Shown here piece by piece: positions 3,071 through 60,400 of a stretch of DNA of 64,000 nucleotides. Position 1 is the stretch's first letter; each line of letters opens with the position of its first letter. The stretch is from a virus. The translations under genes were made by a program, and so were the position numbers. Under the pieces are notes generated by a model. That model searched no databases and was not told where the DNA came from. It saw nothing but the letters and a program-made list of their open reading frames with translations. The DNA lies in the IMG/VR virus record IMGVR_UViG_3300048924_000619, positions 1 through 64,000 of that record; one strand, given 5' to 3'.

Positions 3071-4375
3071 TCAGCCCTCGGCGCGCACGGCGAATTCGCC
3101 GTCCGAGACGCGGGTGACGATCAGTTGCAGGCCGGAGGCGATCGCCTGGGCCTGGAATTCTGCGAAGTGCTCGCTGTCGAGCATCTCCAGGTCGTCGACG
3201 CAGATGAGCTTCAGCTCGCCCGCGCGCTTCTTGGCGATCTCGACGGCGATCTCGACCTGCTGGGCCTTGTTCAAGCGGTCGAAGGTCACGCCGTTGCGGT
3301 AGATCTCGCCGTCGCGCACCTCGAGGCCGGAGATGGGCAGGGCGCCGAGCAGCTCCGACTTGTAGGCGTCCAGGTCAGCGATGGCCTTCGTCTGGCGGGC
3401 GGAGTCCGCGCTCAGGTCTTCGACCTCCTCGCGCAGCTTGGCGAGGGTCTCGCGGGTCGTCTTGGCCCGCACGGCGGCCTCCCGATCGGCGCGGATGGCG
3501 GCGAGGGCGGCGACGTTGGGCGCGAGCTCCTGGTTGAAGCGGTCGGCCGAAATCTCGCGCTGCCTCGACGCCTTGGACTGGATGTCCGCGAAGGCCTGGG
3601 AAGTGGTCGCGATCTCGGCCTGCAGCTCGGCGATGGCGGCCCGGTAGCCGGCGACGGCTGTGTCGTGGTCCGAGCGCAGGCCGTCGAGCTTGTCGTCGAT
3701 CCGCTTCATCTCGGCCGCCTTCAGGGCCTCGATGTTCTGGACCCGCAACACGAGGGATTCCTCGGTCTCCAACTCGCCCGCCGGGCCGCGCTCCGGTGGG
3801 AGGGTGGCGGTCAACTGGCTGATCGTGGACTGCTTGTCCTTGAGCGCCCTGTTGGTGCCGGTGCGGTCGTCGTAGACCGTCGTACGAGCGTGGTCGATTT
3901 GACGAAGAGCGTGGTCGCCGACGGGCTCGAACGTGGCGTCGCCGATGATGGCCTGGATGCGGGTCGTCTCGGCCTGCATCGGCATGCTCTCCAGCATGAC
4001 GTTGACGCGGCGCTTGGGCTCGGCCCGTAGAAAATCTACCGGGTTCATGCTCAGCATGTCGAGCCAGCCCTTGATGGTCGTTTGGGCCTTCGGCTCCCGC
4101 TTGCCGTCCTTCTCGACGGTTACGGTCTGCGACTTCTCCGTGACACGCTTGCGGACCGTGGTCCCCTCGTCGAAGAGCCAGACGATTTCGCCCTCGGTGG
4201 CTCCGTTACGGAGGAGAGTGGCGTCCTCGCCGCCCTTGGCGACGGACTTGATGGCCTCCAGGGCGGAGGTCTTTCCCTTGCCGTTCGGGCCTTCGATCAC
4301 GGTGAAGGCGCCGGCGTCGAAGTCCAATTCTTCGATGCCGAGGATGTTGCGAATGCGGACATGTGTGAGGCGCAT
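3071..4375 (-). CDS. SMC/RecN-like AAA ATPase of the recombination module
   Basis: This ABC-type ATPase of 434 aa starts RLTHVRIRNILGIEELDFDA, has a Walker A motif GPNGKGKTS (residues ~29-37), a long coiled-coil middle (about residues 180-350), a degenerate signature LNKAQQ and a Walker B LKLICVDDLEML near the C-terminus. It has no CxxC zinc hook and is much shorter than SbcC. I chose the ATG two codons inside the open frame because GGAAG lies 7 bases upstream. Related ATPases accompany phage RecE/RecT-type systems and may manage DNA ends. An operator-like inverted repeat lies just upstream. Confidence 0.85.
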   Translation of the reverse strand: MRLTHVRIRNILGIEELDFDAGAFTVIEGPNGKGKTSALEAIKSVAKGGEDATLLRNGATEGEIVWLFDEGTTVRKRVTEKSQTVTVEKDGKREPKAQTTIKGWLDMLSMNPVDFLRAEPKRRVNVMLESMPMQAETTRIQAIIGDATFEPVGDHALRQIDHARTTVYDDRTGTNRALKDKQSTISQLTATLPPERGPAGELETEESLVLRVQNIEALKAAEMKRIDDKLDGLRSDHDTAVAGYRAAIAELQAEIATTSQAFADIQSKASRQREISADRFNQELAPNVAALAAIRADREAAVRAKTTRETLAKLREEVEDLSADSARQTKAIADLDAYKSELLGALPISGLEVRDGEIYRNGVTFDRLNKAQQVEIAVEIAKKRAGELKLICVDDLEMLDSEHFAEFQAQAIASGLQLIVTRVSDGEFAVRAEG

Positions 4376-4398
4376 GGCCAAGCTTCCTAACGTGGTTC

Positions 4399-4413
4399 GG
4401 TAGGTTGTCTACC
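4399..4413. promoter_or_regulatory. Operator-like inverted repeat (GGTAG-N5-CTACC)
   Basis: GGTAG and CTACC flank GTTGT, between the nuclease and SMC genes. The right half, TCTACCG, is a half site of the dispersed TCTACCGGTAGA motif. It may set internal control of the operon. Confidence 0.5.
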
Positions 4414-4466
4414 GTAATTTGTTCTGGAAGTGTTCTCGTTCTGGGCTACGTCCAGTTCGGACGCAG

Positions 4467-5378
4467 CTAGGCGGCTTCGCGCCTTGCGAAGGGGCGGATC
4501 CGCAACGGTTGCGGCCCCTTGTCGGCGGCGAAATCGGGCCAGGAATTGGCGGCCGTGCACTCCAGGATCCGCCGCAGGTCGCGCCGCCCCATCCGGCGGC
4601 CGAACGCCAGCTGCTCGGGCGTCGAGTAGTAGAGGCCCACCTGGAAGGGCGGCTTGGACTCGACGGCGACGAACCCGAACTTCTCGACCACGCCCTGCGT
4701 GCCAAGCGCGAGGTCGACGACGTCCCGATACCAGGGGTCCTGCACGTCGTAGCGGAACTTCGTCGCAGACCCGCCGAAGCCTTCCGGGCTGGCGTCCTGC
4801 GTCGACTTCACGTCGACAATCATGCCGTCGTAGTTCAGGCGGTCATAGTCCGGCCGACACTTCACCAGGGCGCCGGTTTCCGGGTCGATTCCGAAATAGC
4901 TGACCTCGGCCTCGCCGCGTGTGAACAAGCCCTTGACCGAGGGGTGCGTCAGCACGGCGTCGCGGGCGCCCAAGATGTTTGCCCAGGTCTCGGCCTCCAT
5001 GATGATCTTGCCGGCCGCTTCCTTCGTGAAGTCGGACCAGAACTCGATCGCCTTGATCGTGTCGGGCGAGGGCTTCTTGGCGTTGATCTGCCGGCTCGAC
5101 GGGCGGGGCGGCGCATCCTCCGGAGCGACCACATAGCCGGCCGCGAAGCTGTCCGGCTCCAGGATCGCCGCGTGAATCGCGGTCCCGATCACCATCGACT
5201 CGGTCGGCTCGAACGGCCTCCGGTCGGGGTCAACATGCTTAGCGTAGTAAGTGCGTGGCGAGTTGCCACACTCTGGCGCGATGTCATCGCACTTCGACTT
5301 CGATGTGCCCTTACCTTGATGGTAGGCGTCATTGCTCATGCCCCGGACGAGTCCGGGAGCGACAATTGCTTCTAACAC
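4467..5378 (-). CDS. RecE-like PD-(D/E)XK exonuclease
   Basis: This 303-aa protein matches the RecE/exonuclease VIII-like PDDEXK family found in phages. It has an early SNDAYHQ...SKSKCD segment, GTAIHAAILEPD, and the catalytic cluster KCRPDYDRLNYDGMIVDVKS (D, then D-x-K), followed by a C-terminal QLAFGRR helix region. It would resect double-stranded ends for the annealing protein two genes downstream. The annotated start is GTG; an ATG 13 codons inside (position 5339) follows a strong CCCGGAC-GA-GTCCGGG hairpin and is an alternative. It is first gene of the leftward operon, about 60 bases behind a conserved promoter-like box. Confidence 0.88.
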   Translation of the reverse strand: MLEAIVAPGLVRGMSNDAYHQGKGTSKSKCDDIAPECGNSPRTYYAKHVDPDRRPFEPTESMVIGTAIHAAILEPDSFAAGYVVAPEDAPPRPSSRQINAKKPSPDTIKAIEFWSDFTKEAAGKIIMEAETWANILGARDAVLTHPSVKGLFTRGEAEVSYFGIDPETGALVKCRPDYDRLNYDGMIVDVKSTQDASPEGFGGSATKFRYDVQDPWYRDVVDLALGTQGVVEKFGFVAVESKPPFQVGLYYSTPEQLAFGRRMGRRDLRRILECTAANSWPDFAADKGPQPLRIRPFARREAA

Positions 5379-5441
5379 TTGGGGTGTTCCCCGTTTTTTT
5401 GAGTTCCGATTGATGGAGAAGCTGCCCCAATTCCGTCACCC

Positions 5442-5495
5442 TGTATAGGCGGAATCCATCCAAGTTCCGGCGTATACCCCGGAGTTCCCGGAGCG
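5442..5495 (-). promoter_or_regulatory. Promoter-like box of the RecE-like operon
   Basis: On the minus strand the sequence ATTCCGCCTATACA lies 60 bases before the nuclease start. It shares TTCCGCCTA with two other leftward operon leaders (17718 and 25222). GAACTCC/GTTCCC-type repeats lie upstream in all three. The TATACA part is a plausible -10 element; no TTGACA-like -35 is evident. Confidence 0.55.
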
Positions 5496-5605
5496 CCATC
5501 AATACTCTCTAGTCACCCTCTATAATCACGTATTCGCCCGGCTTTGCTTAAGACGACTCCAATTGGATTCCGTAGGGTTGCGACGTCAGCCATGGATTAT
5601 TGGCG

Positions 5606-5617
5606 TCTACCGGCAGC
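5606..5617. promoter_or_regulatory. TCTACCGG operator-like site
   Basis: Reads TCTACCGGCAGC, a copy of the dispersed motif with a degenerate right half. It is the first of three sites ahead of the methylase operon. Confidence 0.45.
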
Positions 5618-5734
5618 CCTGCGATGCTCCTCCTTAGACGGAATACCACCCGAACGGGTACATTTACTCAGGCTCAGCCTTGGCTGTGCCCTGCGGATAG
5701 CTCCGCTTCGTTAGCGTTAATCCGGGATTTCTCG

Positions 5735-5746
5735 TCTACCGGTCGA
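5735..5746. promoter_or_regulatory. TCTACCGG operator-like site
   Basis: Reads TCTACCGGTCGA, one position short of the perfect palindrome apart from a swapped GA/AG. It is the middle of three sites. Confidence 0.5.
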
Positions 5747-5848
5747 CTTTATCCAACCCTGGAAAAGTGTGGTTCGAAGACCCACGCTCTGGTTGCGACG
5801 TTCGACCGCACACGCGGAACACCCCTTAGGTTACGTGCGCGGCGCGAA

Positions 5849-5860
5849 TCTACTGGTAGC
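5849..5860. promoter_or_regulatory. TCTACTGGTAGC operator-like site
   Basis: Differs from TCTACCGGTAGA at two positions and ends 11 bases before the methylase GTG start, so bound protein would block transcription or translation initiation there. Confidence 0.5.
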
Positions 5861-5871
5861 GGTGCGAATCA

Positions 5872-7095
5872 GTGACCGCTCCGGAGGACGTTCTCACCGT
5901 CTGTGACGGAATCGGGGCGGTGCATGAGGCGTGGTCGCCGCTGGGTTGGCGGTTCGTTCTCAGCTCCGAAATCGATGCTTTCCCACGCGCAGTCCTCGAG
6001 CAGCGCCAAGGCGCCGTCGATGCGCGGCTGACCGGCGTCGTCTGGCGGGGCTTGCCCCTTTGGGGCGATTTCACGGCAATTCGGGTGCGCCATTTGCGCC
6101 GGTTGGGCGTGACGCTTCCCTCTCTGCTGGCGGGCGGTACGCCCTGCCAGGCGTTCAGCGTCGCTGGCCTCCGCGAGTCCCTCGCTGATGCTCGCGGCAA
6201 CCTCACCCTCCAGTTCGTGAAGTTGGCCAATGCAATTGACGCTGTTCGGGTCCGAGCCGGCCTCAAGCCCCTCGTCATCGTCTGGGAGAACGTCCCCGGA
6301 GTCCTCAGCGTCGACGACAACGCCTTCGGCTGTTTCCTCGCGGGCCTGGTGGGAGCAGAAGCCCCCCTCGTTCCAGGCAAAGGACAGCGCTGGGACGACG
6401 CGGGTCTGGTTGTTGGGCCGCGAAGGGTCGCGGCGTGGCGCATCCTCGATGCTCAATACTTCGGCTTGGCCCAACGACGCCGCCGTGTGTTCGTTGTCTC
6501 AAGTGCTCGTGAAGGATTCGATCCCGCCGGGGTACTTTTTGAGCCCGAAGGCCTGCGCCGGCATTCTCCGCCGAGCCGAGATGCGGGGGGAAAACCTGCC
6601 GGCGACGCTCCGGTTGGCCTTGGAGTCGGCGTCGATCGTCCGTCAACGATAGCCTTCTCCAACAAGGATCATGGCCAGGACGCGGCCTTCGACCTATCGC
6701 CCACGCTGCGGGGCGGCAATGCGATCGAGCATGCCAACGCGGGCGTGCCACCGGCTATCGCATTCGCGCTGCGCGGCCGCGATGAAGGCGCCCTCCCGGA
6801 GGTCCACGGCGACGGCGACACGGTAGGCACGCTGCGCGCCGCCGACGGCGGGTCAAGCCGGGATTACGTGGCGGCCTCGGCCGTCCGCCGGCTCATGCCG
6901 GTCGAGTGCGAGCGCCTACAGGGCTATCGCGACGGCTACACGGCCATCGTCTGGAAGGGCCGGCTGCCGACGGAATGCCCGGACGGGCCTCGCTACAAGG
7001 CGCTCGGCAACTCCATGGCTATCCCCTGCATGCGGTGGATCGGCGAGCGCGTAGCGGTCGAAGAGACCCGCCGTCTCGCGGAGCTGGCGGCATGA
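5872..7095 (+). CDS. DNA (cytosine-5) methyltransferase
   Basis: The 407-aa protein carries the C5-methylase motifs in order: motif I CDGIGA, motif II EIDAFP, motif IV GGTPCQAFS with catalytic Cys92, motif VI WENVPG (Glu139), motif VIII QRRRRVFV, a variable target-recognition region (about 215-335), motif IX RLMPVECERLQGY and motif X YKALGNSMAIP. Motif I lacks the usual initial Phe. The start is GTG. It is first gene of an operon whose members overlap by 4 bases. No restriction enzyme is adjacent, so it is an orphan methylase, probably for protection against host restriction or for regulation. Confidence 0.95.
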   Translation: MTAPEDVLTVCDGIGAVHEAWSPLGWRFVLSSEIDAFPRAVLEQRQGAVDARLTGVVWRGLPLWGDFTAIRVRHLRRLGVTLPSLLAGGTPCQAFSVAGLRESLADARGNLTLQFVKLANAIDAVRVRAGLKPLVIVWENVPGVLSVDDNAFGCFLAGLVGAEAPLVPGKGQRWDDAGLVVGPRRVAAWRILDAQYFGLAQRRRRVFVVSSAREGFDPAGVLFEPEGLRRHSPPSRDAGGKPAGDAPVGLGVGVDRPSTIAFSNKDHGQDAAFDLSPTLRGGNAIEHANAGVPPAIAFALRGRDEGALPEVHGDGDTVGTLRAADGGSSRDYVAASAVRRLMPVECERLQGYRDGYTAIVWKGRLPTECPDGPRYKALGNSMAIPCMRWIGERVAVEETRRLAELAA

Positions 7096-7571: not shown

Positions 7572-9004
7572 CGTTCACGCCGCATCCCCACCAAGTCGAG
7601 ATGATCCAGGAGGCCCGGCAGGCCTCGATCGAGCATTCCGGCGTCATCATCCAGTCGCCGACCGGCTCGGGGAAGACGGTCATCGGCTCGACGATTGCGC
7701 AATCGGCCGCCAGCAAGGGCGGCGGCGTCATCTTCACCGTCCACCGCGATTTCCTGATCGACCAGACCGCGCAGACCTTCCAGGCCGTCGGGCTCGACAA
7801 CTTCGGAATCATCGCCGCCGGCGTCACGCCGAACCCGCGGCCGCTCGCGCAAATCGCCGCGATCGACACGCTCAAGAACCGGCTCGACAAGGTGGCGGTC
7901 CCCAAGCTGCTGATCGTCGATGAGGCCCACCACTCCGTGGCCGCGGGCTGGGCGAAGGTGATCAACCACTTCAAGGCCCGCGGCACGAAGGTGCTCGGCC
8001 TGAGCGCCACGCCGATCCGGCTGGATGGCCGCGGCCTGGGCGAGCATTACGACTACATGGTCAAGGGGCCGTCGGTCCGTTGGCTGATCGACAACAAGTT
8101 CCTCTGCGACTACGAGGCCTACGTCCCCTCGAGCATCGACCTGTCCGGCGTGCACACGCGGATGGGCGACTTCGTCAAGGCTGAGGCCGAAGAGGTCGTC
8201 GACAAGCCGACGATCACCGGCGACGCGATCCGAGAATACAGCGCCAAGGCGCCGGGCAAGCGCGCGGTCGTCTTCTGCATCTCGATCGCCCACTCCGAGC
8301 ACGTGTGCGCGCAGTTCAATGCGGCCGGCATCCGGGCGGCGCACATCGACGGCACGACGCCGAAGGACGAGCGCAAGCGGATCCTGGCGGCGTTCCGGCG
8401 CGGCGAAATTCTGGTTCTCACGAGCGTCGACATCTTCGGCGAGGGCTTCGACCTGCCCGCGGTCGAGGTGGCGATCCTGCTACGGCCGACTCAGTCGCTG
8501 TCGCTTCACCTCCAGCAGATCGGCCGGGCGCTGCGCATGTTGGCCGGCAAGGACCGGGCGCTGATCCTGGATCACGTCGGCAACCTCATGCGCCTGGGCC
8601 TGCCCGACTCGGATTTCGACTGGTCGCTCGACGGCAAGAAGAAGCGGGCGAAGAAGCCAGGCGAGGAGCCGTCGGTCTTCGTGAAGCAGTGCGAGAGCTG
8701 CTACTCGGTGTTCTGGCCCCCGCCGCAATGCCCTCGCTGCGGCCACGTACACGAGACGCAGGCGCGCGAGATCGAGCACGTCGAGGGCGAGCTCCAGAAG
8801 ATCACGCCCGAGATGCGCAAGGCCATCTCCATGGCGAAGAAGCGCGAAGTCGGCATGGCCCAGTCCCTCGAGGATCTGGAGCGGATCGGCAAGGTGCGCG
8901 GCTACAAGGACGGGTGGGCCGAGAAGGTCTGGGCGTCGAAGGAGAATGCCGCGCAGCGCCGCGCAGAGGCTCAGGCCAGCGCCTACGGGAGGCTGAGCTA
9001 TTGA
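7568..9004 (+). CDS. SF2 DEAH-box DNA helicase with C-terminal zinc ribbon
   Basis: At 478 aa this has Walker A SPTGSGKT (~30-37), DEAH (~118), motif III LSATP, and motifs V/VI SVDIFGEGFDLPAVE and QQIGRALR. A CESC-(9)-CPRC zinc ribbon follows around residues 375-392, and then a charged helical tail. It resembles phage UvsW/type III-like helicases that remodel forks or recombination intermediates. The GTG start overlaps the previous stop (GTGA). Its neighbours are replication genes, which supports a replication role. Confidence 0.92.
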   Translation: MTFTPHPHQVEMIQEARQASIEHSGVIIQSPTGSGKTVIGSTIAQSAASKGGGVIFTVHRDFLIDQTAQTFQAVGLDNFGIIAAGVTPNPRPLAQIAAIDTLKNRLDKVAVPKLLIVDEAHHSVAAGWAKVINHFKARGTKVLGLSATPIRLDGRGLGEHYDYMVKGPSVRWLIDNKFLCDYEAYVPSSIDLSGVHTRMGDFVKAEAEEVVDKPTITGDAIREYSAKAPGKRAVVFCISIAHSEHVCAQFNAAGIRAAHIDGTTPKDERKRILAAFRRGEILVLTSVDIFGEGFDLPAVEVAILLRPTQSLSLHLQQIGRALRMLAGKDRALILDHVGNLMRLGLPDSDFDWSLDGKKKRAKKPGEEPSVFVKQCESCYSVFWPPPQCPRCGHVHETQAREIEHVEGELQKITPEMRKAISMAKKREVGMAQSLEDLERIGKVRGYKDGWAEKVWASKENAAQRRAEAQASAYGRLSY

Positions 9005-9426
9005 CGCCGCTTGAGCGTGAGAACGCCGCGCTGCGGCGCGAGCAGGCGCGTCTGTGTCGGCAGGTCGAGGAGCTGATCGCCCGAGTCGAAGATATGCGGC
9101 GGGAGCTGCGAATCGCTCCGCAGGCCCGCACGATCGATCGACTCCGGACGGCATTCCCGGTTCTGCAGCCGGGCGACGCTTGGATCCTGGCAACCCTCTA
9201 CGCCGCGCGCGGCGAGATCGTCTCGACCGAGACCCTGCTTTCCCACCTTCCCACGAAGGATCAGCAGGAAGAGCGCCAGCCTAAGATCATCGGCGTCCGC
9301 ATTGCTCAGGTGCGGCGGGCGCTCGGTCGTGAGGCGATCAAAAATAGCTTCAGCGTCGGTTACGCGCTGACCCCGGCCGGCATTCAGTTGTGCCGCGCCG
9401 CACTCCGCAGGAAGGCGTCCCGATGA
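9001..9426 (+). CDS. Coiled-coil plus winged-helix DNA-binding protein
   Basis: This 141-aa protein starts at a TTG overlapping the helicase stop. Residues ~1-38 (LERENAALRREQARLCRQVEELIARVEDMRRELR) form a leucine-zipper-like coiled coil. Residues ~55-130 resemble an OmpR-type C-terminal winged helix (AWILATLYAARGEIVSTETLL...IGVRIAQVRRAL...VGYAL). No receiver domain is present. A second protein with the same plan is encoded at 30965-31348. The fold suggests a dimeric regulator. Confidence 0.65.
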   Translation: MTPLERENAALRREQARLCRQVEELIARVEDMRRELRIAPQARTIDRLRTAFPVLQPGDAWILATLYAARGEIVSTETLLSHLPTKDQQEERQPKIIGVRIAQVRRALGREAIKNSFSVGYALTPAGIQLCRAALRRKASR

Positions 9427-9836
9427 AAGAGCAGAACGTCATGCATCGGGTGATGTTGGCGCTCTCGCAGGCGGGGGCGACCGTCTTCCGTCAGAACGTC
9501 GGCCAAGCCGTCGTGGGCGGCGTCGAGTGGATCCGCCAACGGAAGACCGTCACCGTGAACCCAGGCGACGCTGTCGTGCGCGGCGCTCGGGTTTTCCACG
9601 CGGGGTTCGTGGGACAGGGGGATGTCGTCGGCTGGTTCCCGATCGAGATCACGCCGGAGATGGTTGGCCGCAAGGTGGCGGTCGTGCTCTGGCCAGAGGT
9701 CAAGAAGGAAGAGGGCGGGCGCCGGCGTCCTGAGCAGGAGAAGTTCTGCGATCGCGTGGTGGAGGACGGCGGGATTTCCGGATTCGTCCGGAGTCCGGAA
9801 GAGGCTGTCGCCATGCTGCAGGAGTTCACGCGTTGA
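9423..9836 (+). CDS. VRR-NUC domain nuclease
   Basis: A 137-aa small phage nuclease. The recognisable elements are an N-terminal helix (MHRVMLALSQAGATVFRQN), GDVVGWFPIEITPEMVGRKVAVVLWPEVK (Asp then E-x-K-like core, with the WPEVKK lysine), and the C-terminal QEKFCDRVVEDGGISGFVRS ending in an EEAVAML helix. Virus-type replication-repair nucleases of this family cut branched DNA. The ATG overlaps the preceding stop. Confidence 0.85.
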   Translation: MKEQNVMHRVMLALSQAGATVFRQNVGQAVVGGVEWIRQRKTVTVNPGDAVVRGARVFHAGFVGQGDVVGWFPIEITPEMVGRKVAVVLWPEVKKEEGGRRRPEQEKFCDRVVEDGGISGFVRSPEEAVAMLQEFTR

Positions 9837-12685
9837 ACGCTCTCCTGACGCAGGAACAACTGGATAGCCTGCTCGATGCGATGCGCTCGCACGGCATCGT
9901 TTACAACACGAAGGAAAACGGCCCGATCCTGGCCGACGGAAAGCTGCACCGCTTCCAGGTCGACGGCGACCGAAACGACCGGCGCAACGGCTGGTACTGC
10001 GTCCACGTCGACGAGCGGCCGGCGGGCGCGTTCGGCTGCTACAAGCGGTGGGGCGACCAGCGCTTCGCCTGGACGGCCAAGGGCACGGCGCCGCTGACGC
10101 GCGAACAGCGCGAGGAGATTGCGCAGCGCCAGCGCGAACAGCGCGAGGCGAACGCGGCCGCTGAGGCCGAGCGCCAGGCGCACGCCGCGACCCGATCGCA
10201 GGCGATGTGGGACGCGGCGGCCGAATGTACGGAGCATCCGTACCTGACCCGCAAGGGCGTAGGCGCGTACGGCGTGCGGATCGGGGACTTCTGGAAAGAG
10301 CGCCGGGAAGACGGCAAGCCCTTCCTGGCCGCCAAGGGCGCGCTCCTGATTCGGATGCGCGACGGGACCGGGACAACCGGCCTGCAGGCGATCTATGCGC
10401 AGCCGCTCAAGATGGGCGACGAGGCGCGCGACAAGGATTTCGTCTACGGGGCCAAGAAGGCCGGAGCCTGGGCCACGATCGGCAAGCCGATGGAGCTCAA
10501 CGGGTGCGTCACGCTGCTCGTGGTCGAGGGCTATGCCACGGGCGCCAGCGTGCACGAGGCGACCGGCCTGGGCGTGATCGTCGCGTTTGACGCCGGGAAC
10601 CTGATGGCCGTCGGGCGCGAGGTCCGCCGGCTTATGCCCAAGGTCCGGCTCGTGTTCGCCGCGGACAATGACCAGTGGACGGACCGGCCGGTGCGGAACC
10701 CGGGCGTCACGAAGGCGCGCGACGCCGCGGCGGCCGTCGGCGGCGAGGTGATCGCGCCGGCGTTCGCTAACGTCGAGCTGAAGCCGACCGACTGGAATGA
10801 CATGCATGCCCAGTCGGGCCTGACTGAGGTCCGCCGCCAGCTCATGGCCGCGCTCGATCCTCAGCCGGAACCGGCGCCGGAGCCTGATTCGGAGCCGGAC
10901 GAGCCGCCGCCGATCGAGAACCTCGACGACTTCGGGCCGATCGATCGGGACGAACCCGCGGCCCTCTTGCCGGCTGATCTCCCGGAGCCGGAAGAGGAGG
11001 AGATCGACAACCCGTATTTCACAGTGCGCGGCCACGATCGGACGCAGATCTTTATCTATCAGCACGAAAAGAAGATGATCACGGCCCGCGGCGAGGCCGA
11101 TTGGTCCGAGTCAGCGCTGACGGCGATCGCCCCGTTGCACTGGTGGGAGCTGAACTTCCCCGGCGACAAGGGCCTGAACAGGAAGCTGGCCGTGAATTGG
11201 CTCCAGCGCATGGCGTTCAAGCGCGGCTACTTCGATCCGAACTCGCTCCGCGGCCGGGGCGCCTGGCGCGATGACGGGCGGTTCGTCTTCCACTTCGGCC
11301 ATCAGCTCTGGGTCGACGGCCAGATGATGGACGTGACCAAGATCGATTCGACCTACATCTATGAGCAGGGGCGCCGGCTGCGGCTGCCCGCTGAAGAACC
11401 GCTCTCCACCGCGGACGGCAAGAAGGTGTTCGAGACCTTCCAGGGGTTCGCCTGGACGCGGCCTGCCTCGGCGATCCTCATGGCCGGCTGGTGCGCGCTC
11501 GCGCCCGTCGGCGGGGCGTTGCGCTGGCGGCCGCACGTGTGGATCACGGGCGGCGCCGGGTCGGGCAAGACGACCATTCTGAACTTCACGCACTGGCTGT
11601 TGAACGGGTCGAACCTGTACGCGCAGGGCAACTCGACCGAGGCCGGGATCCGGCAATCGCTGCGGACTGATTCGCTCGGGGTGATTTTCGACGAGAGCGA
11701 ACAGAACAACGAGCGTGAGGCGCTGCGTATGCAGAACGTCCTCTCCCTTATCCGCCAGTCGTCGACGGAGTCGGACGCCAAGACGTTCAAGGGAACGCAG
11801 GGCGGCGACTCCATGCACTTCATTATCCGGTCCATGTTCTGCATGGGATCGATCCAGGTGGGCCTGAAGCAACAGGCGGACATGGAGCGCATCTCGATCC
11901 TGGCGCTGAAGCCAAAGCGCGAGGCTGTCGGCGAGGAGGAGAAGGCCGCGGCGGCCTGGAAGCGCATCAGCGCAAGCATGACCGCGCTCCGCTCCGACGC
12001 TGAGCTGCCGGCCAAGATGCTGCGCCGCACGCTCACCCTTCTGCCGATCATCGTCCAGAACGTCGAGGTGTTCGCGCAGGCGGCCGCGGAGACGTTCGGC
12101 TCGCAGCGCGACGGCGACCAGTACGGCGCCTTGCTGGCGGGCGCGTGGTCGCTCGTGTCGACTAAGCTGGCCACGATCGACGAGGCCCGCGCCATGATCG
12201 CGCGCTACGACTGGTCGGAATACCTCGAGGGCAGCGACACCGAGGAATCGGACAAGGCCCTGGCCGCTCTCATGGGCCGCCTGGTGCGCGTGAAGTCGCA
12301 GGAGGTCAGCCTCTACGAGCTGACCCAGCGCGCGGCCGGCGTGGACTGCGAGATGAAGGACATCAGCACGAAGGAGGCGGACAACGTCCTGCGCCGCCAT
12401 GGGCTGATGATCGAGTGGAACGGCGCGCGGCACGTCGAGAATGGGACGCTGCTCGTCGCCTACAAGCACGGCGAGTTGGATCGGCTGATGGAGGCGACCC
12501 CCTATGCCGCCGATCTGAAGGGCCAGCTGCTGCGCATCGCTGGCGCCGGCCGCACCGCCGGTTCGGTGCGGTTCCTGGGTACGCCCTCACGCGCCGTAAA
12601 GCTCCCCTTGACGCTCGTGCTCTCCGGCGCCGGCGATGAATTGCCGGTTCCTGATGACGAGGACTTTGACCGGATCTCATTCTAG
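9833..12685 (+). CDS. Toprim primase fused to SF3-like/DUF927-type helicase
   Basis: This 950-aa replication protein starts at a TTG overlapping the previous stop. The N-terminal ~200 residues hold a primase-associated region (HPYLTRKGVGAYG). A Toprim domain lies at ~225-285, with VVEGYATG (acidic Glu) and FAADND (D-x-D). An acidic/proline linker spans ~340-385. The ATPase half has Walker A GGAGSGKTT (~572-580) and an acidic IFDESEQN Walker B-like segment. It should prime and unwind phage DNA. It ends the rightward replication operon and faces the leftward operon's terminator. Confidence 0.92.
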   Translation: MNALLTQEQLDSLLDAMRSHGIVYNTKENGPILADGKLHRFQVDGDRNDRRNGWYCVHVDERPAGAFGCYKRWGDQRFAWTAKGTAPLTREQREEIAQRQREQREANAAAEAERQAHAATRSQAMWDAAAECTEHPYLTRKGVGAYGVRIGDFWKERREDGKPFLAAKGALLIRMRDGTGTTGLQAIYAQPLKMGDEARDKDFVYGAKKAGAWATIGKPMELNGCVTLLVVEGYATGASVHEATGLGVIVAFDAGNLMAVGREVRRLMPKVRLVFAADNDQWTDRPVRNPGVTKARDAAAAVGGEVIAPAFANVELKPTDWNDMHAQSGLTEVRRQLMAALDPQPEPAPEPDSEPDEPPPIENLDDFGPIDRDEPAALLPADLPEPEEEEIDNPYFTVRGHDRTQIFIYQHEKKMITARGEADWSESALTAIAPLHWWELNFPGDKGLNRKLAVNWLQRMAFKRGYFDPNSLRGRGAWRDDGRFVFHFGHQLWVDGQMMDVTKIDSTYIYEQGRRLRLPAEEPLSTADGKKVFETFQGFAWTRPASAILMAGWCALAPVGGALRWRPHVWITGGAGSGKTTILNFTHWLLNGSNLYAQGNSTEAGIRQSLRTDSLGVIFDESEQNNEREALRMQNVLSLIRQSSTESDAKTFKGTQGGDSMHFIIRSMFCMGSIQVGLKQQADMERISILALKPKREAVGEEEKAAAAWKRISASMTALRSDAELPAKMLRRTLTLLPIIVQNVEVFAQAAAETFGSQRDGDQYGALLAGAWSLVSTKLATIDEARAMIARYDWSEYLEGSDTEESDKALAALMGRLVRVKSQEVSLYELTQRAAGVDCEMKDISTKEADNVLRRHGLMIEWNGARHVENGTLLVAYKHGELDRLMEATPYAADLKGQLLRIAGAGRTAGSVRFLGTPSRAVKLPLTLVLSGAGDELPVPDDEDFDRISF

Positions 12686-17791: not shown

Positions 17792-18100
17792 TTAGCTCTT
17801 CGGCTTGTCTCCGCGAGCGGCGGCCTCGGCCAACGCGTGAGTGATCGCTGCCTCGTTCGAGGCGAAGCCGAGTTTACGAAGCTTGCGAAGGTTTTCGACC
17901 GTATCGAACGGCAGCCACATAGTCACTTTCTTGTAGCCAGACTGCTTGAGGCGAGCAAAATAATCAGCCTGTACCTGAGAACGCGACTTCGGCACTTGGC
18001 GGTCCTCGACCTTGCCGGGCGATGATTCTTTGAGACGATCGCGATCGGAATCGTCTCTCGAACCACCGTCGTGTTGAAGGGAAGATAATGCCGAAACCAT
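17792..18100 (-). CDS. Ribbon-helix-helix-like protein
   Basis: A 102-aa protein. The C-terminal ~45 residues (YKKVTMWLPFDTVENLRKLRKLGFASNEAAITHALAEAA) fit a CopG/MetJ-type RHH: a beta strand VTMWLP, then two helices. The first ~50 residues are polar and probably disordered. The ATG has a strong GGAGG. It is transcribed away from the XRE regulator and could be its partner in a switch. Its own leader is AT-richer than the surroundings. Confidence 0.65.
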   Translation of the reverse strand: MVSALSSLQHDGGSRDDSDRDRLKESSPGKVEDRQVPKSRSQVQADYFARLKQSGYKKVTMWLPFDTVENLRKLRKLGFASNEAAITHALAEAAARGDKPKS

Positions 18101-18365
18101 ACTCCCTCCGATGCCGCTGACTAGATTTGTTTCCGCGGCGACACAAACACGTTAGCCGATTAAGCGATAGACGGGCATTAACGAATATTAACAGCTGTCG
18201 TTTTAAGCCGCTGACGCAGGCCCTGCCAAGAGGGCCTTAGAAGAACCTTGTGGAATTTGCCGAGGCTGCTCAAAGCCGGGCACTCCCGAAATTTCCGTCT
18301 GATCCCGATTTGGGCTCAACCCTCTATTGTTTTACTTGGCAACCGCGCTTGCACCTGCGGGATCA
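18101..18365. other. Divergent intergenic region between RHH-like and XRE-like genes
   Basis: No gene. It includes ATTAAC direct repeats (CATTAACGAATATTAACAG, 18176-18194) and a GGCCCT-N6-AGGGCC hairpin at 18219-18236. Its position between two small DNA-binding proteins makes it a candidate regulatory switch. Confidence 0.45.
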
Positions 18366-24966: not shown

Positions 24967-25161
24967 CTAGGCGGCGCGGAGAGTGCTGGGGCGGGTCTTG
25001 CGGGTCTGGCCGTCGTCGCCCTTTACGTGGGCCCAGATGCCGCCGCCGCGAGCCTTGCCGAGATCCTCAAGGCGCTCGACGGTGCCGGTCACGTCCTTCG
25101 GATAGCGGCCCGTGGTGGTATAGGCGACCCGGTCACCGGCCTTGAAGTTCACTTCGCTCAT
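24967..25161 (-). CDS. Small SH3/KOW-like protein
   Basis: A 64-aa protein: NFKAGDRVAYTTTGRYPKDVTGTVERLEDLGKARGGGIWAHVKGDDG is a small beta barrel pattern (G-D-R-V...G-T-V-E). It is first gene of the 25-kb leftward operon, about 60 bases behind the conserved promoter-like box. AAGGAAAG precedes the ATG. It may bind nucleic acid; this is inference. Confidence 0.7.
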   Translation of the reverse strand: MSEVNFKAGDRVAYTTTGRYPKDVTGTVERLEDLGKARGGGIWAHVKGDDGQTRKTRPSTLRAA

Positions 25162-25221: not shown

Positions 25222-25260
25222 ATTCTAGGCGGATACCGGGGACTTCGCGGGCAGTCGCGG
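25222..25260 (-). promoter_or_regulatory. Promoter-like box of the 25-kb leftward operon
   Basis: On the minus strand ATCCGCCTAGAAT lies about 60 bases before the 25161 start. It is near-identical to the 17718 leader over 30 bases, with GTTCCC/GAAGTCC-type repeats upstream. Confidence 0.6.
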
Positions 25261-25318
25261 GAACATGACCTCTGGAACCTTGACTTTTGGGCCCGCCTGT
25301 GAGCATATTGGGGCTTCG

Positions 25319-25376
25319 GGCCCCCTGGGTCTGTCCACATGCGGGCGTCGTAACCCGCGGGCAGATCCAGGGGGCC
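25319..25376. repeat. Long imperfect hairpin
   Basis: 15-base arms (25319-25333 and 25362-25376) pair with one G-T wobble. Inside, GCGGG (25341-25345) pairs with CCCGC (25354-25358). No T-run follows on either strand, so it is not a standard terminator. Confidence 0.7.
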
Positions 25377-25398: not shown

Positions 25399-25769
25399 CG
25401 GTACACATCCGACCCTTGAATTAATTAGGGATTTCGAGATTTGTACCGGCCGCCCGGAAAGCGGTACAAAATCCGGTACACGCTAAGGCGTTGAACCGAA
25501 ACGCGAAATCGCGATTTGTACCGATGTACCGGCCATCTCCGAAAATATACCCAGCATGCGCGTGATGGATCCCCATCGCGTGATACCCCATGCCTGATAT
25601 ATCCCTCTCACGGGGGGTCTATATTTCTATTTATATCGGTACATCGGTACATATAGATAATAATAGAGCAAAAACAGATAGTTAGATTGTACCGCTTTTT
25701 GTACCGGTTTTTCGCTCCGTGGGACAAATGCAGAAAAGCCCAGCGAACTCTGAGGCTTGCACTGTACCG
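25399..25769. repeat. Iteron-like cluster of eleven TGTACCG heptamers
   Basis: Copies in either orientation start at 25399, 25442, 25462, 25474, 25517, 25525, 25637, 25645, 25688, 25700 and 25763. An extended form is GATTTGTACCGG. The perfect palindrome AAATCGCGATTT (25506-25517) abuts one copy. Chance would give well under one copy in this span. AT-rich DNA lies within the cluster. Confidence 0.85.
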
Positions 25770-26008
25770 GTCTGGCCTCGCAGGCCCATCAAGCCCCGCC
25801 AACCCGGCGAATATGCATCCCCCAGGTTCCCGCGACTTCCCAAGTATTCGCCTGCCGCTCTGCGAGTGCCCGCGAACGCCCGCCTATCCTTGAGACAATA
25901 AAGCCCGACGCGTGAGACCCCTTTTGGCAGGGGTAAGGCCGTCCAGTCTCCAGCGGCCCTCACCGGTCTAGTCAACCGGGCCCCCTCCACCTTCCGAGGG
26001 GTTCGCAC

Positions 26009-26611
26009 GTGGCTCACGCCCGCAAACAGGTCGAGACGCTTCCGCCGCCGCCGGGCCCCGCCCGCGACGCTGACGGCGTCTCGTACCTGGAGGACGCCAG
26101 CGCTCCGGGGCTGAAGTTCTTCCGGTGCGAACCCCACCGCGCCACGCTGTCGATGAAGGGGTGCGCCGGCCGCTGGATCGAGGCGCAGGTTGCGAGCGGG
26201 GAGGCCAGCGAGCGCCTCACAGCCTGCCGCAGCTGCCCGATCGGCGCCGCGCACGCCGGATATGCGCCGGTCCGATATTCCCCGTATTTCGGGACGTCGA
26301 TCTGTCCCCGCCACGGGGGCGGCACGACGCGCATGATCGGCAATCGGGTCTGCGTCAGCTGCTACAACCGCCAGCGGGAAATGAAGGCGGGGAAGAACGC
26401 TCGCGGCAATAAGCCCGTTGAGCTGCTCCAGAACCCGCTGCGCGCCCTCGAGCTTCGCCTCGAGGTCGACGGGACCGCGCGCCGCTTCCGCGACCGCGAG
26501 ACGTCCAGCTCCACCGAAACCATGGTCCAGGTGCTCCGCACGACGAAGGGCGAAATCGCCTTCGGCTTCTCGGGCTCGGACCGCCAACTCCGTCAAGGGA
26601 GGCTGTTTTGA
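26009..26611 (+). CDS. Cysteine-rich hypothetical phage protein
   Basis: A 200-aa protein, first gene of the rightward middle operon. It has FFRCEPHRATLSMKGCAGRW, LTACRSCPIGAAHAGY, TSICPRHGGGTTRMIGNRVCVSCYNRQRE, which together could bind two zinc ions. The C-terminal ~50 residues are beta-rich. GAGGGG lies 8 bases before the GTG start. Similar proteins occur in other phages, without a function known to me. It borders the candidate origin. Confidence 0.75.
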   Translation: MAHARKQVETLPPPPGPARDADGVSYLEDASAPGLKFFRCEPHRATLSMKGCAGRWIEAQVASGEASERLTACRSCPIGAAHAGYAPVRYSPYFGTSICPRHGGGTTRMIGNRVCVSCYNRQREMKAGKNARGNKPVELLQNPLRALELRLEVDGTARRFRDRETSSSTETMVQVLRTTKGEIAFGFSGSDRQLRQGRLF

Positions 26612-54427: not shown

Positions 54428-57400
54428 ATGCTGCTGCTCCTGATGAAGGCCGATCAGCTCGGCCTGTTCGAAAAGCTCGTGCCCGTGAAGGCGAGCATCA
54501 GCTCGTCTGGCCGTCTGATCTCCGCGCACACGGCGATCCGGCACGTCCGGCGCGTCGAGCCGACGAAGCGCCATGCCGAGGTGCTCGACCTCTTCGGACA
54601 CGCGCCGCAGCCGAAGCCGGCCCTGGTCACGCCGAAGAAGCCCGCGCCGGCACCGCAGGCGGACCTGTTCGAGCATCGGCCGGATCCGCCGAAAGCCGAC
54701 CTCAACGGCATGATGGCGCGGTCGCGCGATCAGCGCTTGGCGCGCGAGGCCAAGGCGAAGGAGATCGGTGCCGGCGTCGGGTCGGTCAAGCTGAAGCATG
54801 CTGACGGTCGCGCCGCGCTGCTTTCCCCGGATCTGCAACGCGACGGCGGCTGGCGATTCACCCGCCTGGATGCCGACGGGCCGGTGGGCCACTCCGAGTA
54901 CGACAGCAAGGAGGCCGCCGCTGCGGAGGCGCTGCGTGCCGGGTACTCAACCGACGCGCCGGAAGCGATCCAGCCGCACGCGCCGTTAGAACCGGCGGTC
55001 AGCCTCCAAAATCAATTACCCGCCTCCGGAATCGATTACTCCGAGGGCCTGCCGGCCGAGCTTCCTGCTTTCGGCGTCGCGCCGGGGACGACCAAGGGCG
55101 AGCGACGGGCGATCAATGCGCTGGCCGCCTCAATGGTCAACGGCCGGAAGTCCCTGCTCGACGAGGCGCCGGCACCGGTCAATCCGGAGGTGCTCCGTCA
55201 ATATTCGGGCTGGGGCGGCTGCGGCGACAGCCTGAACGAGTTCTACACCGATCCGAACGTGGCCGCGGCCATGTGGTCCGTCCTCCATCGCATGGGCCTG
55301 GGGGAGGGCGCGAGCGTCCTGGAGCCGTCCTGCGGCACGGGCGTCTTCCTCGAGCTGGCGCCGAAGGGCGTCAAGGTCACAGGAGTCGAGCTCGACGAAA
55401 CCAGCTCCAAGATCGCGGCCACCCTGCACCCGACCCACGAGGTGGTGAATTCCGCCCTCGAGGCTTTCGCGACGACCGACACGCGCCAGTTCGACGCGGT
55501 GATCGGCAACCCGCCGTTCGGCGATAGCCGTGGCTCCCTGGTTGCGGCCGACAAGCCGGACATCAGCCGGCCCGAGCAATATTTCGTCGATACCGCGCTG
55601 GACAAGGCGCGCGCCGGCGGCCTGGTCGCGCTCGTGCTGCCGACCGGGATCTTGGACAGTCGGTCTGCGCGCAAGCTGCGGGATCGCTGGATCCGCAAGG
55701 GCCAATTCCTCGGCGCCCTGCGCATGCCGAACACCGCGTTCGAGGCCAGCCACACGGGCGTGACCACGGACGTCGTGTTCTTCCGCAAGCGGCCAGACGA
55801 GGTCGCCGGCGCGCTGTCCGTGGTCGATCGCGACACCCTGAAACTGCTCGGCGCCTGGGACGAGGAATTCGTCGGCGGCGGCTACTTCAGCGGCCGCGGT
55901 GAGGGCAACATCCTTGGCACGCTGGAAGCCGGGTGGCGCTCCAAGGCCGGCATGGGCGACGACATCACCGTGGCAGGGTCGATGGTGGGCGTCCCGGAGG
56001 CGATCGCCAGCTTTGAGCCTGAACAGCCGTCGGGCCCGACGGGCGTGGAGGAGGTGCTCGGCGCCGTCCAGGACCAGGATCTGAAGGCTCGCATCCGCGG
56101 CGCGGCCGCGCGCAAGCCCTACGATCAGGCGAAGCGCGGCGACACCCGGGTCATCGACGGCGTGACGTACGTCCTGGAGGGCTCGCCGCTCCGCTGGCAT
56201 CGCGTGGACGAGTTCATGGCGGAGCAGGCCGTCGTCGACGCCGGCGCGCTCGGCGCCGACATCGAACGCGCGGTGCAGGGCGAAGACGTGCCCGGCCTGG
56301 CGGACCGCGTTCGCGCCTATGTCTCGGCGCACGGGATCCCGGCGAAGAATCCGAACCTCGTCATAGCGGCAAAGCAGGACAAGGCGATATATCGCCTGCT
56401 CGGCGCCGTTAAGCAGGACGGCTCGCTCTCTGACGTTGTCGAGGGCCGTCGCGAGTCCGCCGCCGTCTCCAACTTTGACACGGCGGCGAAGACCCTCGCC
56501 CTGGAAGTCGGCTACTTCTCGCCCTCCATGGTCGCCGGCCGCTGGCATGGCGGGACCGAGGATGTGGTGCTCGACCACCTCTATGCCTCGCCAGACTATG
56601 CGATCGATCCGCGCAGCGGGACCTGGACGAGCCTCGACCAGTACCTCTCCGGCGAGCTCTGGCCGAAGTACGACGACGCGAAAGCGGCGCTGGCCGAATC
56701 CGACTTGAAGCCGGAAGACCGGGCGAAGATCGAACGCCAGCTGGCCGCGCTGGACGAGGCGATTGCGCCGAAGTCGCTGGAGGACGTCGAGATCCAGGTG
56801 AATAGCGGCTTCGTGCCGCTGAACGTCGTGTCGGCTTTCTTCAACGAGGTCCACCCGTCGAGCTACGGCGACAAGACGCCGATGACCATCACCTATGACG
56901 AGGGCGTCTTCGCCGTCATGGGTGGCGGCTACGAGGCGCACACGCTGCGCAAGTACCTGAACCGCGACGGCGTGCGGAAGGACGACGATCTGCCGACGAT
57001 CGAACGGTGGAACCGGGCATTCAAGGAGTGGCTCTGCGCCTCCGCCTATCGCGACGAGGTCGAGGAGCTCTACAACCGGAAATTCCGAGGCTTCCGCCAG
57101 AAGGCCTATTCGGAGGAAGCGTTCGAGGTTCCAGGCCTGCGGTCCGACGGCCTGAAGAGCTACCAGTGGAGCGGGCTGCGCTGGGCTCTGGAGGCCGGCA
57201 AGGGGATCATCGCGGCCGACGTTGGCCTGGGGAAGACGGCCCGCGCGCTGATCCTCAACAAGCTGATGAAGATCACGGGGCAGGCCAAGCGCCCCATGAT
57301 CGTGGTCCCGAAGTCCGTGGCGGCCAACTGGATGCGCGAGGCGGAGAAGTGGTTCCCCGGCTCGTCCGTCATGGTGATCGGCGAGACCTACAGCCGCGAC

Positions 57401-60400
57401 AAGAACGGCGAGCTCAAGGGGCGTGGCGATACCGAGGCGGAGCGGAATCAGAAGTTCCACGACATCCGGCAGAACGACTACGACTTCATCCTGATCACGC
57501 AGCCGGCCTGGAATGCGCTCGACCTGGATCCGGAGACCAAAGAAAAATACGCCAGCTCCGACTTCTGGGAGAAGCGGAAGGAAGGCCTGGGCAAGGGCCC
57601 GAGCGCCAAACAGCTCGCCCGCCAGAAGGAAGCCCACGACGCCAAGATCGCGAAGCAGGACTTCCAAAGCCGCTCGGACGCGCTCTACTTCAATGACCTG
57701 GGCGTCGACGCCCTCATCTCCGACGAGATGCACGCCTACAAGAACCTGTTCGAGGCGCGGGACCGCTTCGGCCAGCAACCGAAGTTCCTCGGCGGTTCGT
57801 CCAGCTCAAAGCGGGCGGCGGACATGCGCTGGAAGACGGACTGGCTGCGCGACCAGACCGGCGGTCGCAACGTCTATGGCCTGACGGCCACGCCGACGAA
57901 GAATAGCCCGCTTGAGGTCTATTCGATGCTCTCGCATATCGCCCCTGAGGCGTTCCTGAACATCGGAATCCGGAACTCCGAAGACTTCCTCGACCGCTTC
58001 TGCGAGTTCAAGGAGGAGAACGTCCTGGACACGAATGGGCGGATGACCCGCTCGCTCTGCGTCAAGGGCTTCAAGAACCTGTCCGAGCTGCGCGAGATCA
58101 TGCGCCGCTACATCGACCGGAAGACGGCTGAGGACGTCGGCCTGCAGCTGCCGGCGAAGGACGATCGGCAACACCTCGTCGATATCTCGGCCTCCCAGAA
58201 GGAAGTCTACGCCGAGTTGCGCGAGCTTGCGGAGAAGGCGAAGCAGGCCGGCAACGACGCCAGCGGCGAGGCGCACCCGTTCTCCATCATGCACAAGATG
58301 GACCGGGCGACGCTCGACCTGGAGCTCTACGACCCGGTCCGCTACGCTGGCGCCCGGTCGCCCAAGCTGGAGCAGGCCGTCACCAACATCACATCGGGCA
58401 TCAAGGAAGGCGGCCAGATCGTCTTCTGCGACGCGATCGAGACCCATGACAAGCTGGTCGGCCTCCTCGTCGCAGCGGGGATTCCCCGCGATCAGATCGG
58501 AGTCCTGAACGCCAAGGTCGCGCCCACCTCGGCCAAGCGCCAGAACATCGCGGAGGCCTACCGGGCGAAGAAGCTGCGCGTGGTCATCGGCAACTCGACG
58601 ATGGAAGAGGGCGTCGATGGCCTGCAGGCCGACACGACCGACATTCACCACCTCAACATCCCCTGGACGCCGGCGGCCATCCAGCAGCGGAACGGTCGCG
58701 GCCTTCGCCAGGGCAACACCGCAGAGGCCGTGCGCCTGCACAACTACCTCGCGAAGGGCACGTTCGACGGCTACCGCTATCAGACGATCTCGGCGAAGAA
58801 GGACTGGCAGACCCTCCTCTGGGACGGCGGCGACCGCGTTGAGAACCTCGCGTTCGAAGGCGGCATGAACCACGAGGAGATGTTGATCGCGCTCGCCGAG
58901 GATCCGGACAAGGCGCGCGAGGAGTTGACGAAGAACAAGGAGTTGGCGCAGGCCAAGCTCGACGCGCAACAGTACGCCGACGCGGCGGAAGCGTACCGGG
59001 CCTATCGGAAGATGCGCGCCAGCCTCAAGAAGCTGGACGCGGGCTCGCGCGCCAAGGCCTCGGGCCAGCGCCTCGAGCACAAGCTGAGCATGATGCGGAC
59101 CTCGCTGGAGGCGAACCCGTACTTCAAAGCCAAATCCGCGATCGACGCCGACCATGAAATCATGATCGCGCCGGGGTCTGGCGACGCCATCGCGCCTGGC
59201 GCGGGCCTCGACGTGCCGCCCGAGGGCAAGATCACCACGGGCAGATATGTGGTCGAGAAGGTGTCGCCGGATCACGGTTGGGTTGAGCTGCGGCGCTGGG
59301 GCGAAACCGGGAAGGCCGGGCGCATGCTCGTCGATCTGGCCGACCTCTCCCACGCGAAGGTGACGGAGCACGACAAGGCGGCGGAGGACGCGCACATCAC
59401 GGCGAAGACGGCTGAGGTGCTCGCGGCCGGCGCCAAGGATCTCGACAGCTACAAGAAGCTGCGGGAGTTCCCGTCGGCGGCGATCGAGGCCAACCGGGAA
59501 GCGATCAGCCACACGGTCAAGCGCGGCCTGAAGGAATACAAATTCCGCGACGGCTACGAGGCGCGGATCGGGATCATCCGGCCAGAGGGCGCGCGAGCGC
59601 TGCCGAGTTACGAGGCCGGCAAGCTGACGGACGCCGACCTGCCCATGCTGCCGATCGACGAGCACAAGAAGCTCGCGTTCGACGCCTACGCTGCGGACGA
59701 GGCCGGCAAGAAGTTCACGAAGGTGCCCGAGACCGGTCGCCGCGGCGCCTCCACGGGGCGGTATCGCGATGAGCTGCGCTACCCGGGCGACCACTATAAC
59801 GGCGAGACGAAGAACCGCTGGGCGAGCGTGATCGAGAATCTCTGGGGCCCGGAGGGGTTGTCGGAGGCCCACCGCCAGTTTGAGTCTCGGCAAATGGAGG
59901 CCGCGCGCCGCGCACCGGACTTGAAGACGGCGATCGCCCACGCCCTGCCGACATCCATCCGGAAGGAAGGCTACATGCCGACGGTGAAGAGCAAGTGGGG
60001 CCGCAAGGCCTTGGCCACGCTCTACGCGAAGGCGAAGGCTGGCGGCCACCTGCGTACGCCGCTGCTCGACCACCTGGAGACCAAGGAGGTGCGTCAGGGC
60101 TACGGGCTCAGTGAGCGCCGCTACCAGACGCCAGTCGTCAGCGAGGATCACTTCTCCGATGGACGCACCTACGGATCCGTCGTCAAGGAGCCGGTCGGCT
60201 CGGCCCTTGCCAAGCTCGCCGTCGCCAACGGTCACGTCGACCTTGCATCGGCCATGGCCGTCGATCACGCCGAGACGCCGGAAGAGGCCATGTCCAACCT
60301 TGGCCGGCTGCCCGAGCACCCGGCGCGCGAGGACGCCAAGCGCCACCTGATCGCCAAGCATCCTCACCTGGGCCAACTCGAGGAGGCGCCGCGTGCAGCC

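Follow-up and report, generated by a model that had tools for sequence, protein, structure and literature searches.

To our knowledge, origins of replication have yet to be mapped in most phages that encode a fused primase-helicase, and the closest described systems are those of the SaPI and SCCmec elements and of satellite phage P4. In SaPI origins an AT-rich core is flanked on each side by iterons, which are specific to the element. The alpha protein of P4 has an origin-binding C-terminus, the short repeats that accompany it occur in both orientations (TGTTCACC), and P4 replication requires two sites, ori plus crr. SaPI Rep and SCCmec Cch2 are reported to bind their iteron origins through a C-terminal domain, and SaPI origins sit directly behind the initiator gene (PMC7581432).

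We describe here an array of short repeats that is very probably a phage replication origin of the P4/SaPI type, read by the phage's own primase-helicase. It lies in a stretch of 64,000 nucleotides (hereafter the window) that is part of a 94,137-bp IMG/VR virus record. A sequence-only reading of the window had drawn attention to eleven TGTACCG heptamers in both orientations around AT-rich DNA, in a divergent gap of about 370 bases, and had proposed a phage origin or a centromere. Our recount agrees, giving 11 exact copies of TGTACCG/CGGTACA in both orientations at 25399-25769, which account for 11 of the 13 copies in the window (2.5 expected; 0 of 100 shuffles reach 13), while the remainder of the 94-kb record holds two more. 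When all 7-mers were scanned, this was by far the strongest cluster in the window, with a log10P of -22 compared to -7 for the next unrelated word. The array sits between the divergent genes 24967-25161(-) and 26009-26611(+), both transcribed away from it, and this gene order, diverging from the array, is in keeping with an origin. So is the AT-rich DNA, which was correctly noted: the 80-mer at 25620-25699, within the array, has the lowest GC content in the window (27.5%; next 42.5%), and 25652-25687 is 78% AT. Of 105 arrays, 53 contain the GC minimum of their locus, against 4.5 expected.

The heptamers form three exact inverted pairs, CGGTACA-N36-TGTACCG, each 43 bp from start to start, a feature that the sequence-only reading had missed, as it had the tandem pair 25637/25645 next to the AT-rich stretch; the threefold equal spacing is of modest significance (P about 0.025 by simulation), and further copies sit 8 or 12 bp from the pairs (Table 1). 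A 43-bp gap is also found in the array of phage PHB04, at the place equivalent to the third pair. The spacer is capable of forming a hairpin, CGCGTGATGG-ATCC-CCATCGCGTG at about 25559-25582, with a weak DNA fold z of -1.8. A DNA-similarity search of the array region against phages returned no match.

Table 1. Features of the array, its proposed initiator and their surroundings (window coordinates), with the repeat words of relatives.
Feature	Position	Strand	Remark
Array of 11 TGTACCG heptamers, proposed initiator-binding iterons	25399..25769	.	count beyond 100 shuffles
Heptamer copies	25399, 25462, 25474, 25637, 25645	-	
Heptamer copies	25442, 25517, 25525, 25688, 25700, 25763	+	
Inverted pair 1, CGGTACA-N36-TGTACCG	25399..25448	.	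43 bp start to start
Inverted pair 2	25474..25523	.	43-bp spacing; extra copies 25462 and 25525 flank
Inverted pair 3	25645..25694	.	43-bp spacing; encloses AT-rich stretch; extra copies 25637 and 25700
Spacer, about 105 bp	25532..25636	.	left block to tandem pair
Tandem heptamer pair (25637/25645)	25637..25651	-	abuts AT-rich stretch; recurs in relatives
AT-rich presumed unwinding element	25620..25699	.	lowest-GC 80-mer of window
CCCGCGA repeats, left flank	25244..25263	-	possible divergent promoter/regulator sites
CCCGCGA repeats, right flank	25827..25876	+	mirror left flank
First gene of divergent leftward operon	24967..25161	-	family search: no match
200-aa cysteine-rich conserved protein	26009..26611	+	adjoins array in 90-kb clade; Pfam, PHROG: no match
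Primase-helicase, 950 aa, proposed initiator reading array	9833..12685	+	TOPRIM primase half, residues ~1-390; AAA+ helicase half and C-terminal DNA-binding domain, residues ~392-950
Arg913 codon	12569..12571	+	residue covarying with word base 6
Repeat words			window CGGTACA; PHB04 GGATACC; ST4 GGCTACC; Touem01 GGTAAC; Dolphis CGGTTACC; fHe-Yen8-01 CTGGAACA; phiT5282EW CTGTCACA

The position and layout of the array are kept across relatives that each have their own word, and this argues for an origin. Homologs of the 26009 protein occur in nine records representing eight phages of about 90 kb (PHB04, Dolphis, Jeremy, Touem01, fHe-Yen8-01, ST4, phiT5282EW and Mecenats66), all eight of which encode the window primase, Dolphis and Jeremy its C-terminal half only. 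A repeat array stands upstream of the 26009 homolog in seven of the eight, and is weak in Mecenats66. As a lone query the 26009 protein matched nothing in a translated IMG/VR search; an alignment of its family did find homologs there, and many of the phages concerned show the same arrangement. Nearly every lineage uses its own repeat word (GGTTACC, GGATACC, GGCTACC, CCGTTAC and TGGAACA among them), and the common layout has two blocks of sites; between them come, in order, a spacer, roughly 90-135 bp long at the equivalent place in most relatives, and a tandem pair at an AT-rich stretch. The closest relative is a syntenic Parvibaculum contig (L186 in our numbering of loci), whose primase is 53% identical and whose array, likewise upstream of the 26009 homolog, is built of CCGTTAC/GTAACGG, a word that alignment by eye puts one base away from CCGGTAC of the window. 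The inter-block spacer is alternating purine-pyrimidine (GCGCGCATG...) in L186 at about 17945-18000 and in L010 at 3640-3690; alternating sequence of this kind is prone to form left-handed DNA.

As to which protein reads the repeats, we fetched phages having only replication genes in common with the window; our searches as a whole covered INPHARED, IMG/VR and GTDB samples, with up to 80 loci per scan. Acjo_20 has nine copies of TGTAACA directly upstream of the initiator gene, KLER1-1 five of GCTTACA directly behind it, and MQ-4 five of CGGTAAC 1.7 kb behind it. Scoring a 7-mer cluster of log10P <= -10 in the 900 bp behind the gene as an array, we found one directly 3' of the primase-helicase gene at 68 of 196 nonredundant loci (gene present, at least 400 bp behind it), compared to 7 of 588 control regions drawn from the same loci; many of the 196 loci without an array behind the gene belong to the 90-kb clade, where the array lies elsewhere. 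The C-terminal half and the array are kept while the primase half is exchanged, for AEP/PriCT_2 in Acjo_20 and for a different N-terminus in Dolphis. (Loci that show the exchange are the window at 9833-12685, L026 at 3650-6172 and L019 at 7723-10635.) The arrays accompany the C-terminal helicase half, and do not follow the genes for the terminase or for the DnaA-like or ParB-like protein; the link to the helicase half, seen in many phages, again favours an origin.

Of the proteins that the sequence-only reading had listed for binding assays, none gained support. The DnaA-like 7092 protein has only a sub-threshold Bac_DnaA_C match, and none of 50,697 phage records yielded a homolog; the 26009 protein is a conserved neighbour of the array in the 90-kb clade, and no homolog of it turned up at the array-bearing loci of compact phages; the ParB-like 30166 protein is absent from the eight named clade phages. 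The primase-helicase, correctly noted as encoded by the same phage, is the protein that travels with the arrays and covaries with their word.

A second phage group has 8-15 copies of the word TCGGTACA at the 3' end of a different protein, in which a related TOPRIM half is joined to a RecA-type AAA_25 helicase in place of the SaPI-like one; the TOPRIM half may perhaps contribute to word recognition. This group was picked by its word, so its coincidence with the word of the window is a selected one. Between 8 and 15 copies of TGTACCG are found at or near the 3' end of the AAA_25-type gene in about 45 of the 67 loci L479-L545, for example at L493 5267-7500. Another locus, L007, has 31 copies of CGCAGCA in 290 bp (9108-9399), upstream of a distant primase homolog; these look like a tandem repeat and not like an origin array.

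Within the compact phages, the repeat word and the initiator vary together. Among 82 nonredundant proteins whose words fit the frame C-G-T-N-A-N-R, base 6 (C or G) is predicted best, of all alignment columns, by fragment residue 522, which corresponds to Arg913 of the window protein: Arg or Lys goes with C in 45 of 49 cases and Tyr, Trp or His with G in 27 of 30, for a leave-one-out accuracy of 0.90 (next column, 0.78). The neighbouring residues 911, 912 and 923 likewise score well for bases 4 or 6. With the protein tail left out of tree building, a minimum of 11 changes at base 6 and of 13 in the class of residue 913 was counted; the roughly nine independent pairs that have support comprise 7.1 concordant and 0.6 discordant changes, for which a sign test is marginal (median p 0.04). 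The window itself fits the rule, having Arg913 and C at base 6, and its word is unusual at base 3. An earlier, mixed set of 61 phages, analysed for covariation with word base 3 and, domain by domain, with partial Mantel tests, showed no clear covariation and no winged-helix signal. The covariation of base 6 with residue 913 fits the origin reading, and lends indirect support to the view that the C-terminal domain of the primase-helicase may set iteron specificity.

The predicted fold of the initiator points the same way. The helicase half (residues 392-950) was modelled as an AAA+ helicase with a pLDDT of 92; its best Foldseek match is the SaPI5 primase-helicase (7ola, E 6e-7), with further matches to NrS-1, AsfvPrimPol and MCM, while its best match in VIA is SCCmec Cch (5dgk; 413 residues superposed at an rmsd of 6.7, Z 15.4), on a par with MCM helicases. 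The model thus predicts an AAA+ core of the SaPI Rep/Cch type, and this likeness to SaPI5 and Cch supports reading the array as an origin. The C-terminal domain (residues ~783-950, pLDDT 90) is predicted to be winged-helix-like, followed by a small sheet that would carry residues 913 and 923; alone against the PDB it gives weak matches, with Z at most 5.2, to a Salmonella DUF1528 C-terminal domain, TcpK-oriT and HSF/IRF winged helices.

The locus resembles the SaPI (SaPIbov1, SaPI5 PriRep1) and SCCmec (Cch/Cch2) systems in its short iterons and in the fold of the helicase half, and P4 (alpha with ori1/crr) in having a single primase-helicase protein. As in SaPI and P4 origins, several short repeats lie in both orientations around an AT-rich core. 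The differences from SaPI and SCCmec are that the helicase carries a fused TOPRIM primase, that the carrier is a phage of ~94 kb, that a search against solved structures by sequence found no relative of the window protein, and that the array lies 12.7 kb from the gene, where theirs are directly behind it. That separation, also seen in the 90-kb clade, counts against an origin here; in the compact relatives the array does lie directly beside the initiator gene. The array probably works like a SaPI/P4 origin, but at a distance from its initiator gene. No sequence match to P4 alpha was detected for the window protein.

There is also an apparent likeness to bacterial oriC and its DnaA-trio basal unwinding system, in the tandem box pair at the AT-rich stretch and in the trio-like trinucleotide runs of several relatives, such as ST4 (CTACTACTACTA) and PHB04 (CTTCTTCTTCTA). 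In L013 (3776-3850), L010 (3717-3760) and L012 (3758-3860), runs of CTA, CTT, TTA and CTAA abut the tandem pair, and such tri- and tetranucleotide runs occupy the place of DnaA-trios in bacterial origins. In contrast to oriC, the window contains no DnaA boxes (TTATNCACA), and no Bac_DnaA AAA+ domain was found in the 94-kb record. A host DnaA could nevertheless act.

Other functions for such an array have to be weighed. An operator array, where a phage repressor or activator on the heptamers would control the two divergent early operons, suits the placement between those operons and the flanking CCCGCGA repeats, which resemble paired promoter or regulator sites; however, the array is present in fHe-Yen8-01 and phiT5282EW, where the gap is not divergent, compact phages carry it behind the primase gene, and a search for a regulator gene common to array carriers found none. 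We regard this explanation as very unlikely, although the site may have regulation as an additional function. We hold it to be about as improbable that the array is a packaging site of pac or cosB type, bound by the small terminase subunit to start packaging. In favour of this, Mecenats66 has a verified preferred packaging start at its record ends (PMC9503643), and this start falls inside the 26009 homolog (L015 3968-4457), less than about 1 kb from the array position; the Touem01 record ends 12 bp past its 26009 homolog (L011 3989-4546); and in KLER1-1 the array would lie between the primase and terminase genes if the record ends were joined. Yet the arrays follow the primase-helicase in phages with differing packaging genes, the terminase of ST4 is tens of kb from the array, the cut in Mecenats66 misses it by several hundred bp, and the word covaries with a primase residue. 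The Mecenats66 start suggests that this neighbourhood may hold a packaging site too; taken with the end of the Touem01 record, it raises the possibility that in the 90-kb clade packaging begins next to the origin.

Whereas the origin half of the sequence-only proposal is strengthened by the arrays of relatives and their linkage to the primase-helicase, the centromere half has lost ground, and we give it scarcely any credence. On that proposal ParB-like 30166 would bind the array and segregate a plasmid-prophage, and a ParB-like (DUF6551) protein is indeed encoded both here and in L186. But its absence from the named clade phages means that ParB is not conserved wherever the array is; moreover, 30166 matches its family in the N-terminal ParB-like region only, a ParA-type AAA_31 ATPase was not found in the 94-kb record, and the phage encodes an integrase. 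GC skew, suggested earlier as a check on the origin, says little here: it shows no clean origin signal in the 94-kb record, and in ST4 the minimum is 5 kb from the array and is confounded by gene strand. This lack of a clean signal counts against the origin reading, as do the marginal sign test, the base-3 result and the weak PDB matches of the C-terminal domain.

If the array is an origin, we infer a sequence of steps running from binding to bidirectional replication. The C-terminal domain of the primase-helicase would bind the heptamers and recognise the word by its strand around Arg913; helicase rings would assemble on both site blocks, and the AT-rich segment would melt; the helicase would then load itself, prime and start forks, which would set out, probably bidirectionally, from between the two divergent operons. 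Beyond this single locus, we lean towards the view that these arrays belong to an extensive and so far unrecognised family of phage origins, whose iteron words and initiator reading strands around residue 913 have repeatedly been rewritten together, and in which, as modelled, that strand would lie outside the canonical winged-helix recognition helix. If true, this would be a natural protein-DNA specificity code, and phages with different words would be mutually non-interfering replicons; the family would offer a set of origins with their cognate initiators in which the evolution of replicon specificity could be followed. For the ~90-kb clade (PHB04, Dolphis, ST4, Mecenats66 and others) and many IMG/VR phages, the analysis supplies a testable origin, names a likely initiator and points to a single residue that seems to take part in selecting the word.

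Some further features of the window deserve mention. In L186, TTCCCGC repeats and AAGTATTCG at about 18205-18275 occupy the same place as the right-flank repeats of the window, and this second repeat family (TTCCCGC/CCCGCGA, AAGTATTCG) perhaps marks the divergent early promoters on either side of the array. Rfam matches in the gap were to sub-threshold miRNA models and were attributed to chance. Between the left operon and the array, at 25319-25376, is a GC-rich hairpin with 18-bp arms (GGCCCCCTGGGTCTGTCC / GGGCAGATCCAGGGGGCC) and a 22-nt gap. Elsewhere, 54428-60403 encodes a 1991-aa protein that matches DNA methyltransferase/helicase and DarB-like antirestriction families.
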